DNA of 64,000 nucleotides from Streptomyces syringium (GTDB lineage: Bacteria > Actinomycetota > Actinomycetes > Streptomycetales > Streptomycetaceae): positions 1,674,001 to 1,738,000 of the forward strand of contig NZ_JAGIOH010000001.1 of assembly GCF_017876625.1 (NCBI RefSeq). Reading direction: 5' to 3'. Below are positions 21,045-22,660 of the stretch, in pieces. Within the stretch, counting starts at the first letter, position 1. Every line of letters begins with the position of its first letter. The notes below the pieces were generated by a model. It was not told the origin of the DNA and made no database searches. It saw only the letters and a program-made list of their open reading frames with translations. The position numbers were made by a program, and so were the translations under genes.

Positions 21045-21890
21045 TCAGAGCAGTGCGGCCCGCGGACCGTCCGGCTCCTGCAGGCGCCGCTCGTGGATCG
21101 CGCGGACGACCTCGGCGCACTGGGCGTCGGTCAGCTTCCGGAACCCCTCGTCGGTGATGACGGTGACGATCGGATAGATACGGCGGGCGAGGTCGGGCCC
21201 ACCGGTCGCCGAGTCGTCGTCGGCCGCGTCGTACAGCGCCTGGACGACGAGCGTGGTGGTCTGATCCTCCGTCAAGTTCTCCCGGAAGAGCTTCTTCAGC
21301 GCACCGCGCGCGAAGACCGAGCCGGAGCCGGTCGCCGCGAAGCCGTGCTCCTCGGAGCGCCCGCCGGTCACGTCGTAGGAGAAGATGCGACCCTTGTTGC
21401 GATCGACGTCCCAGCCGGCGAAGAGCGGCACCACGGCGAGGCCCTGCATGGCCATGCCGAGATTGCTGCGGATCATGGTGGACAGCCGGTTCGCCTTGCC
21501 CTCCAGGGAGAGTTGGACGCCCTCGACCTTCTCGAAGTGCTCGAGCTCGAGCTGGAAGAGCTTGACCATCTCGACGGCCAGCCCGGCCGTGCCGGCGATG
21601 CCGACGGCCGAGTACTCGTCGGCCGGGAAGACCTTCTCGATGTCCCGCTGCGCGATGACATTGCCCATCGTCGCCCGCCGGTCGCCGGCGAGCACCACAC
21701 CGCCGGGGAAGGACGCGGCGACGATCGTCGTGCCGTGCGGCGCCTCGACGGCGCCCTTCAGCGGAGGCAGCTGCCGATTGCCCGGCAGCAGGTCCGGCTG
21801 GTGCGTACCGAGGAAGTCCATGAAGGACGACGAGCCGGGCGTCAGGAAGGCAGCCGGCAGACGCCCGATGCTACGAGTGTTGGCTTCCAC
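21045..21890 (-). CDS. prcB: 20S proteasome beta subunit (with propeptide)
   Basis: Catalytic subunit of the proteasome, 281 residues. A propeptide of 53 residues ends at EAPHG, and the mature protein begins with Thr54 ([23 protein letters not shown]), whose hydroxyl is the nucleophile; the family's Asp and Lys residues follow in GDRRAT. GTG 21890 is chosen because TGGAAGGAAACGC precedes it at good spacing, even though this overlaps the end of the endonuclease VII gene by 49 bases. That overlap implies close translational coupling. Confidence 0.96.
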
Positions 21891-22435
21891 GCGTTTCCTT
21901 CCAGATAAGCGATCGCCCGACGCATCGCGCCACGATCATCTCTCAACTTGCCGAGTGCCGAATTACAGTTGAAGCACAGTACGCCCCGGACTTTACCCGT
22001 CTCGTGATCATGATCCACATGCTCGGCCGGGGCAACGAGACAGATCACGCACACACCGCCCTGCCGCTTCACCAAGTCACGCAACTGGTCCTGACTCAAG
22101 CCGTACTTGCGGCGGAAGCAGCTATCCCGGTTACGCCCCGCCCGACACTCGCGGCAGTAGCTCGACCAGCCGTCCGAAGATGTCTTGTTTCGCTCCCACT
22201 CACTGTGCGGCTTCACCTTCTCGCACTGTGGACACCGCTTGTGCCCCCGCGGAACGGGCACCTTAACCCGCACCACGCGCCCCTTGGCTTCCTGACGCCG
22301 CTTGTAGTAGTCGGCAGAGCACACTCGGCAGTACGACTGAAGGCCGTCACTGATCGATTGGTTGGAGGCGAAGGCATCACGAGGCAACGTCCGCTTGCAT
22401 CGGGAGCATTTCTTTCCTGGATGCAATTCGGACAT
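21842..22435 (-). CDS. Endonuclease VII-like HNH nuclease with tandem zinc modules
   Basis: Protein of 197 residues inserted between pup and prcB. It has two similar four-cysteine modules, C10-C13/C36-C39 and C68-C71/C94-C97, each with a SDGxxSYCRxC stretch. The C-terminal endonuclease VII core follows: [22 protein letters not shown] (C129, C132), [19 protein letters not shown] (His142/144, C154, C157, Asn158). The zinc ligands, His and Asn of the His-Me nuclease are all present, so activity is plausible. G+C by hand count is 60% over 21961-22440, well below its neighbours. The start ATG 22435 uses GGAGAG inside the pup stop region. Its cellular role is not known to me. Confidence 0.87.
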
Positions 22436-22441
22436 TACCTA

Positions 22442-22660
22442 CTACTCTCCACCCTTCTGGACAAATGACCTCACGAAGTCCTCGGCGTTCTCCTCGAGGA
22501 CATCGTCGATCTCGTCCAGCACGGAGTCCACGTCGTCCGACAGCTTCTCCTGGCGTTCCTTGAGGTCTTCCGAAGCCTGCGCGTCCTGTGCCTGCTCCTC
22601 GACCTCCTCCGTGGAACGCGTGGCCTTCTGCTGCCCGCCGCCGGTGTCCTTGGTCGCCAT
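22442..22660 (-). CDS. pup: Prokaryotic ubiquitin-like protein Pup
   Basis: Small, acidic, largely disordered modifier of 72 residues, beginning MATKDTGGGQQ. The central helix segment (EDLKERQEKLSDDVDSVLDE) binds the coiled coils of Arc/Mpa. The C-terminus is FVQKGGE: the last codon is GAG (minus strand of 22445-22447), so Glu is encoded directly and no deamidation of Gln is needed before ligation by PafA. ATG 22660 is chosen because the family begins there. The endonuclease gene starts six bases after the stop. Confidence 0.97.
   Translation of the reverse strand: MATKDTGGGQQKATRSTEEVEEQAQDAQASEDLKERQEKLSDDVDSVLDEIDDVLEENAEDFVRSFVQKGGE

Follow-up and report, generated by a model that had tools for sequence, protein, structure and literature searches.

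The proteasome operon of Streptomyces syringium carries, between pup and prcB, a gene for an Endonuclease VII-type nuclease. This gene is probably a free-standing, homing-endonuclease-like mobile cassette that has its home at the pup-prcB junction of actinomycetes, a reading drawn from sequence comparisons, with DNA cleavage as a step that we infer. The nuclease gene has not been inserted recently, nor has it become fixed as a gene of the proteasome. In close relatives, the comparison of genomes makes visible both the exchange of the cassette, together with the 3' end of pup, and the ends of the exchanged tract.

The nuclease gene and its operon

The window is the whole stretch of 64,000 nucleotides of S. 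syringium DNA that was analyzed, and its relevant features are collected in Table 1. An earlier reading of this DNA, made from the sequence only, had described a 197-residue nuclease between pup and prcB, six bases after the former and overlapping the latter by 49 bases. These coordinates were confirmed: the open reading frame (21842-22435, minus strand) comprises 197 codons and starts with ATG, with 6 bases between the pup stop codon and this start. Its five neighbors were typed with Pfam as Pup, PrcB, PrcA, the proteasomal ATPase, and, at the dop position, a Pup-ligase-family protein. The short spacing and the overlap suggest that pup, the nuclease gene, and prcB are cotranscribed, as had also been proposed in the sequence-only reading.

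Table 1. Features of the pup-prcB junction in the window.
Feature	Position	Strand	Basis or remark
Endonuclease VII-type (DHHRN, beta-beta-alpha-Me) nuclease gene, 197 aa	21842..22435	-	PF02945 E 1.9e-24; phrog_2633 E 6.3e-41; Hpy99I E 1.2e-16 and T4 Endo VII E 4.7e-12 by profile
First four-Cys zinc module, C10-C39; most variable region, most linked to pup 3' end	22319..22408	-	
Second four-Cys zinc module, C68-C97; within the Hpy99I-matching stretch	22145..22234	-	
Catalytic core, C129..C132..D141 H142 H144..R150..C154..C157 N158	21962..22051	-	invariant in 47 sequences
49-nt overlap of nuclease 3' end and prcB 5' end	21842..21890	-	stop position same in 59/62 intact Streptomyces copies
GGAAGGAAAC, Shine-Dalgarno-like sequence of prcB, made by nuclease codons (YLEGN)	21893..21902	-	seen in the sequence and in the consensus of each locus class (intact, broken, remnant, spacer)
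Last ~60 nt of pup, flank exchanged with the nuclease; contains last sense codon GAG (Glu)	22442..22501	-	
pup; Pup of 72 aa from the usual ATG, end GGE	22442..22660	-	PF05639 E 2.8e-29; start picked by eye from the ORF
prcB (proteasome beta subunit), GTG start	21045..21890	-	TIGR03690 E 3e-115

The base composition of the gene differs from that of its surroundings. Recomputation gave a G+C content of 60.0% over positions 21961-22440 and 78.3% over 21661-21720, in exact agreement with the 60% and 78% counted earlier; the nuclease gene as a whole has 60.4%, compared with 71.3% for the window, 69.8% for prcB without the overlap, and 69.0% for dop. The foreign-like composition noted in the sequence-only reading is also seen at third codon positions, where GC3 is 0.71 in the nuclease gene, 0.86 in pup, and 0.92-0.93 in prcB, prcA, dop, and arc. 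The protein contains two CxxC...CxxC modules (C10/13/36/39 and C68/71/94/97) followed by an Endonuclease VII core, as that reading had it, and the core residues C129, C132, D141, H142, H144, R150, C154, C157, and N158 are invariant in 47 aligned sequences. This gene is the single PF02945 match in the genome to which the window belongs. Because the nuclease recurs at the same place in other genera and orders, the reading frame is far beyond chance. A species with the gene at this position is S. coelicoflavus (L283).

The first approximately 17 codons of prcB are almost frozen, both in the window (21840-21890) and in the Streptomyces loci, even where no nuclease is present, and several of them end in A or T. 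Such codons are rare in Streptomyces. The overlapping code may account for only part of this conservation.

Family and predicted fold of the nuclease

PF02945 (Endonuclease_7) covers residues 107-179 of the 197, with a score of 85.8 against a cut-off of 23.6 (E 1.9e-24). A profile built from 47 locus sequences (the window and 46 others) was compared with solved structures; it matched Hpy99I across the second zinc module and the core (E 1.2e-16) and T4 endonuclease VII, with which a comparison had been proposed earlier, over the core only (E 4.7e-12). An AlphaFold2 model of the nuclease (mean pLDDT 88, pTM 0.60) likewise retrieved Hpy99I as the top hit of a fold search (E 2.8e-5, probability 1.00), at a TM-score of only 0.26 that makes the domain arrangement tentative. 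The catalytic D, H, H, R, and N and the CxxC...CxxC site are all present, which places the protein among the Endonuclease_7, or DHHRN, beta-beta-alpha-Me nucleases; D141, H142, H144, R150, and N158 are the counterparts of the DHHRN signature of F-CphI.

In T4 endonuclease VII, an N-terminal core is followed by a large C-terminal part that serves in junction binding and dimerization. The window nuclease has the opposite arrangement: its core is C-terminal and is followed by only about 18 residues, modeled with low confidence. In a published classification, proteins whose core is C-terminal belong for the most part to the homing and restriction clade, and those whose core is N-terminal for the most part to the resolvases (PMC6083498). 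By motif position, the C-terminal Endonuclease VII motif places our protein in the DHHRN homing/restriction clade. A Holliday-junction resolvase resembling T4 endonuclease VII, for which the common catalytic fold and the profile match of E 4.7e-12 speak, is scarcely credible, since a core lying behind two zinc modules is the arrangement of most endonuclease-clade members (PMC6083498) and since Hpy99I is the better match.

Hpy99I (PDB 3fc3), which combines a zinc module with an Endonuclease VII core as our nuclease does, is a type II restriction enzyme, and PADLOC also returned a match to its REase_II profile (E 1.8e-6). Moreover, the first zinc module is the most variable region, with a protein identity of 0.50 compared with 0.75 in the core. 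One could therefore think of a restriction or defense-like nuclease under diversifying selection, in which alleles of different specificity are exchanged and rare types favored. We consider it quite improbable. A methylase adjoins Hpy99I and almost every one of its Helicobacter relatives (PMC6083498), but no partner methyltransferase of a type II restriction-modification system was found among the six Pfam-typed proteins of the operon; the nuclease keeps a single fixed address, and such a system offers no evident reason for the co-exchange of the pup 3' end described below.

With a median omega of 0.16 over 12 disjoint pairs, the nuclease evolves under purifying selection, which agrees with the homing reading and fits a function in the cell equally well.

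Some variants of the enzyme were also observed. Four loci (L150, L155, and L156, in genomes G256, G238, and G229, and L329) contain, 3' of pup, open reading frames of 308-384 aa with two complete DHHRN cores each, resembling a fused nuclease dimer. In G025 (L042) and G085 (L128), the frame is of full length but the second Cys of the first core CxxC is replaced by Arg; these are possibly dead enzymes.

Occurrence across actinomycetes

Six peptides taken from the window protein served as seeds for a scan of 84,980 species genomes, which biases the scan to close relatives. It confirmed 160 relatives, of which the best 80 were kept. Among these, pup lies upstream in 80/80, with the match beginning 4-333 nt past the pup stop, and prcB downstream in 79/80, the remaining locus (L329) ending before prcB. 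The 80 come from Streptomyces, Kitasatospora, Embleya, Actinacidiphila, Catellatospora, Actinocorallia, Geodermatophilus, Blastococcus, and Jatrophihabitans, as well as from Frankiaceae, Frankiales, and a few other actinomycetes, and thus from the orders Kitasatosporales, Micromonosporales, Streptosporangiales, Geodermatophilales, Frankiales, and Jatrophihabitantales. Motif-bearing open reading frames of 150 aa or more were found in all of these orders except the last.

A class-wide draw took in 128 genomes, of which 117 are from outside Streptomyces. A PF02945 gene was present in 21 non-Streptomyces genomes and stood after pup in 16 of these; in G156, G181, G239, G255, and G263 it is located away from pup. 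Each of 14 other family codes includes at least one genome in which pup and prcB abut or overlap without a nuclease, with extrapolated gaps of -28 to +11 nt.

The synteny check suggested by the sequence-only reading found the nuclease, with an intact active site, at the pup-prcB position in many Streptomyces, and the pattern that would have spoken against that reading, i.e., recent insertions in a few strains with an unconserved active site, was looked for and not found. A recent insertion from a phage was rejected because the close homologues occupy the pup-prcB locus itself; the 15 phage records listed among 1,820 matches are only 29-33% identical (60 of the 1,820 cover at least 80% of the query, and two matches at 60-80% identity cover less). 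Among plasmids, the 15 records listed of 18 are partial matches with 31-45% identity.

Further observations concern the wider gene content. Five loci of family f15 (L142, L143, L147, L148, and L166) gave no prcB match within about 1.5 kb 3' of pup, and long opposite-strand open reading frames were seen there. Many Streptomyces genomes (e.g., L028) have extra PF02945 genes away from pup, often with longer frames. Several also contain, elsewhere in the genome, second, diverged prcB-like sequences with 72-75% DNA identity (examples are G016:C968, G008:C1:9113715, G006:C1:4621378, and G010:C2:292806).

Decay and loss in Streptomyces

We read both pup and prcB in 150 Streptomyces genomes and called a nuclease intact if an open reading frame of at least 160 aa contained the zinc/DHxH motif. 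The junctions comprised 62 intact genes, 11 long broken copies, 47 remnants, and 30 loci with a spacer only. Recognizable nuclease sequence is therefore left in 58 of the 88 loci without an intact gene, and the 30 spacer-only loci are inferred to have arisen by decay as well. The complete motif DHxH-R-CN occurs in 62/62 intact copies, for whose selection a looser form had been used; by pattern, the first four-Cys module was recognized in 59 and the second in 55. Remnants were also seen by eye in a second family, f16.

Even the most reduced junctions keep a gap of at least 105 nt between pup and prcB. Decayed loci mostly retain GGAAGGAAAC ahead of the prcB start, a sequence that in live copies consists of nuclease codons.

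As an optional gene between two conserved genes, the nuclease shares a trait of free-standing homing endonucleases. Pup was found in 150/150 genomes and an intact nuclease in 62/150, so the nuclease is not a constant component of the Pup-proteasome system. The proposal of a foreign origin with later fixation consequently did not hold in its second part, as the gene is decayed or missing in 88/150 genomes and live copies have often been replaced between species. A single gain followed by plain vertical loss was also rejected. On a host tree built on prcB alone, the intact or non-intact state needs 29 changes, at least 16 of them forced by starred branches, and the genome with the most similar nuclease is also the one with the most similar prcB in just 6/62 cases. 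Weighing against the homing reading, inheritance is largely vertical at the level of clades, as indicated by an overall Spearman correlation of 0.49 between nuclease and prcB identity.

In G147, a full gene is nested in a clade of spacers of 109-112 nt, which makes a gain of the nuclease in this genome probable. The window locus shows a related pattern. The closest match to its nuclease is in G086 (73% DNA identity, prcB 81%), while the five nearest prcB genes among the 150 genomes (G058, G017, G049, G035, and G047; 87-89%) stand beside remnants or a bare 105-nt spacer, and four of these five genomes have a Pup ending in GGQ, compared with GGE in the window. This is compatible with re-entry of the cassette, at distances too large for proof in this strain.

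Exchange of the cassette between close relatives

Four pairs of genomes (G137/G138, G012/G107, G019/G108, and G115/G133) have prcB genes that are 97.8-98.6% identical and nucleases that are only 60-70% identical; in a fifth, G147 with its full gene is paired with G053 with a 109-nt spacer, at 99.0% prcB identity. Identity profiles of these five pairs in 60-nt windows share one shape. Through dop and most of pup, identity is mostly 92-100%, it falls to 77-90% in the last 60 nt of pup and mostly to 45-80% in the nuclease, and from the start of prcB it is again 97-100%, with the exception of G147/G053, whose first two prcB windows are at 92 and 95% before values of 98-100% are reached. In G137/G138, the 240 nt that precede the pup stop contain 18 mismatches, every one of them between -88 and -7. 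Over all ten pairs profiled, which had been selected for differing, the last pup window was at 67-90% and the first prcB window at 92-100%. Identity thus drops over a stretch that begins in the final ~60-90 nt of pup and ends where prcB starts, and it is high again on either side, so that the swapped tract is a cassette of about 650 nt bounded by the pup 3' end and the start of prcB.

Of the eight assemblies in the four allele-swap pairs, 4/8 are single-contig, two have 2-3 contigs, and two (G019 and G108) are drafts, so that contamination is an unlikely cause. Fast point mutation was rejected as an explanation, because prcB, dop, and prcA of the same pairs are mostly more than 90% identical, on average about 98%, and because the nucleases differ by indels and are more like alleles of other species.

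The same pattern of exchange is repeated in new pairs and in another order. In Catellatospora, L331 and L334 compared with L335 are mostly 93-100% identical upstream and in prcB (single windows 83-88%), and the last 60 nt of pup are at 83-87%; the first ~360 nt of the cassette are at 45-57%, followed by 65-68% and then 90-100% in the rest. Here, too, Pup ends in Glu in one type and in Gln in the other. What the comparisons reveal is local gene conversion with co-conversion of the flank, a hallmark of homing endonucleases.

Tests on close pairs and linkage to the flanks

To avoid pairs picked for differing, disjoint closest pairs were formed by distal prcB identity of at least 0.95 (20 pairs), and their spacers were called different or same with identity cut-offs of 0.75 and 0.80, which were fixed after a first look at the data. 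Ten pairs had different and ten the same spacer content. Over all close pairs, the last 51 nt of pup were 0.809 identical in the 20 with different cassettes and 0.916 in 18 with the same cassette; the former value equals practically the genus mean for random species pairs (0.815), whereas pup positions -204 to -102 stay at 0.95-0.97 in close pairs.

The exchange was associated with a live copy of the nuclease. At comparable prcB identity, the last 51 nt of pup had a median identity of 0.961 where both copies are dead (n=9) and of about 0.82 where one or both are intact (n=11, p=0.0008). Lowering the threshold to 0.93 gave a median of 0.931 for dead-dead pairs (n=14), compared with 0.84 (n=7) and 0.80 (n=12) for pairs with an intact copy (p 0.00015). 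Exceptions occur in both directions. The dead-dead pair G026/G128 has a pup end at 0.82, and G125/L324, with no live copy by the criterion used, nevertheless has different cassettes; G038/G041 and 4/4 same-cassette pairs of a second set (see below) have two live copies and yet the same cassette.

Linkage was estimated as the partial correlation of nuclease identity with flank identity, with distal prcB as the control and 300 permutations. It was found with pup positions -60 to -3 (partial r 0.19-0.25, 0/300 permutations) and with prcB positions 0 to 60 (partial r 0.18, 6/300) and was not significant beyond approximately 60 nt on either side. Along the nuclease, linkage to the pup end declines from 0.34 in the first zinc module to 0.22 in the second, and then to 0.12 and 0.08.

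These results bear on the idea of a host nuclease for DNA processing or stress, co-expressed with the Pup-proteasome system (e.g., in the DNA-damage response), whose alleles spread by ordinary recombination and are lost where unneeded. The low omega, the invariant active site in 47 sequences, and the constant position across orders would all agree with it, and a review ties the Pup locus to DNA damage through PafBC. Still, 88/150 Streptomyces genomes have a decayed or missing copy, ordinary recombination should reach further than the ~60 nt of linked flank, and we found no profile match, and no paper in the open literature searched, linking the nuclease to the proteasome or to repair. We judge this explanation unlikely.

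The last residue of Pup

In the 150 Streptomyces genomes, Pup ends in GGE in 74 and in GGQ in 76, and this label changes 44 times on the prcB tree. For the 62 genomes with an intact nuclease, the nuclease tree requires 14 changes of the label (mean after shuffling 20; 1/500 shuffles as low) and the prcB tree 22, no better than shuffled. Among the 20 close pairs, the last residue of Pup differs in 8/10 with different and 1/10 with the same cassette (Fisher p 0.0055); at the 0.93 threshold, it differs in 14/20 different, 1/13 same, and 1/2 in-between pairs (p 0.0009). By association, then, the terminal Glu or Gln is exchanged along with the cassette. The direct correlation of nuclease identity with Glu/Gln identity is small (r only 0.05, 10/300 permutations), and the frequency of a Glu/Gln difference did not differ significantly between dead-dead and any-intact pairs (p 0.09 and 0.08), with two of the nine dead-dead pairs (G026/G128 and G040/G024) differing.

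A second set drew on 62 further named loci, paired disjointly so that one or both members of each pair were new; several genomes used before reappear with new partners, and prcB was compared unaligned, which can only miss close pairs. At 0.95, the residue differs in 4/6 different, 3/3 in-between, and 0/3 same pairs (p 0.17 for different versus same), and at 0.93 in 9/13, 3/4, and 0/4, respectively (p 0.03).

A Pup that ends in Gln must be deamidated before ligation (PMC8223512), and the exchanged last codon is thus biochemically meaningful. One might suppose that the target of selection is the Glu/Gln terminus, or else expression at the junction, with the nuclease as a passenger of recombination. 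The 8/10 versus 1/10 contrast would suit this, but a single base change would suffice to alter the terminus, G137/G138 and G147/G053 swapped cassettes without any Glu/Gln change, and dead-dead pairs mostly retain the pup 3' end; we hold the supposition to be very improbable. A functional tie between pupylation and DNA cleavage, raised by the sequence-only reading, found no support; the link that was found is genetic, as exchange of the cassette rewrites the 3' end of pup.

Proposed mechanism and comparison with known systems

Under the preferred reading of a homing-endonuclease-like cassette, a strain with a live allele would meet the chromosome of a relative, e.g., by conjugation. The nuclease would read the DNA through its zinc modules and cut the relative's junction near the pup 3' end, while its own copy would be guarded by silent differences at that end. 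Repair from the donor allele would then carry over the cassette along with the adjoining ~60-90 nt of pup and, on the other side, no more than a short piece of prcB. In its new place, the cassette would ride in the pup transcript and supply the Shine-Dalgarno sequence of prcB, which may be the reason why decay leaves the observed stub. Idle copies decay, and loci would later be refilled, most clearly in the one nested clade described above. As a side effect, the last residue of Pup, Glu or Gln, would be swapped with the cassette.

Free-standing homing endonucleases are best known from phages. The nearest parallel is F-CphI of cyanophage S-PM2, which has the same D-H-H-R-N residues, a C-terminal Endonuclease VII core, and a free-standing gene beside a conserved one (PMC6083498). 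F-CphI is a phage gene adjoining an intron-containing psbA, and the intron guards its own copy (PMC6083498), whereas our nuclease resides in a bacterial core operon and may be self-protected by silent pup differences. The free-standing endonucleases of phage T4 (segF, segG, and others; intronless homing, marker exclusion) are likewise optional genes between conserved genes and cause local gene conversion with a co-converted flank, as in the pup-prcB cassette. These are GIY-YIG or HNH enzymes whose mobility was demonstrated in mixed infections. Signals of the next gene embedded in them make their loss costly; these are promoters in T4 and a Shine-Dalgarno-like sequence in the cassette (for T4, PMC2988022). 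T4 endonuclease VII itself (PDB 1e7d) has the catalytic beta-beta-alpha-Me domain in common with the nuclease and is a resolvase with an N-terminal core, unlike the C-terminal core found here.

The enzyme family and its lifestyle are known from phages. The open literature searched, with most subscription papers outside its scope, contained no mention of a proteasome-operon nuclease with consequences for Pup, and "nuclease", as any part of a word, is absent from the main texts of Iyer 2008 and of three reviews. It is quite possible, and we put it forward tentatively, that a free-standing homing endonuclease has long resided in this bacterial core operon, that competition between alleles maintains polymorphism at silent sites in the pup 3' end, which serve as both target and self-immunity, and that a by-product of this competition switches Pup from Glu to Gln and back, leaving it to a selfish element whether deamidation by Dop is needed.

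Significance

Decay, replacement, and probable re-entry of the cassette are all visible within one genus. The findings advise caution against inferring a proteasome function for the nuclease from its operon neighborhood. If the cassette is homing, a resident of a chromosomal core operon across bacterial orders would be a natural system for the study of gene-drive-like elements. If such switching is true, it would explain the scattered GGE and GGQ ends in Streptomyces (74 versus 76 of 150), and the mosaic of Pup termini in Glu and Gln would have a specific cause that can be tested.
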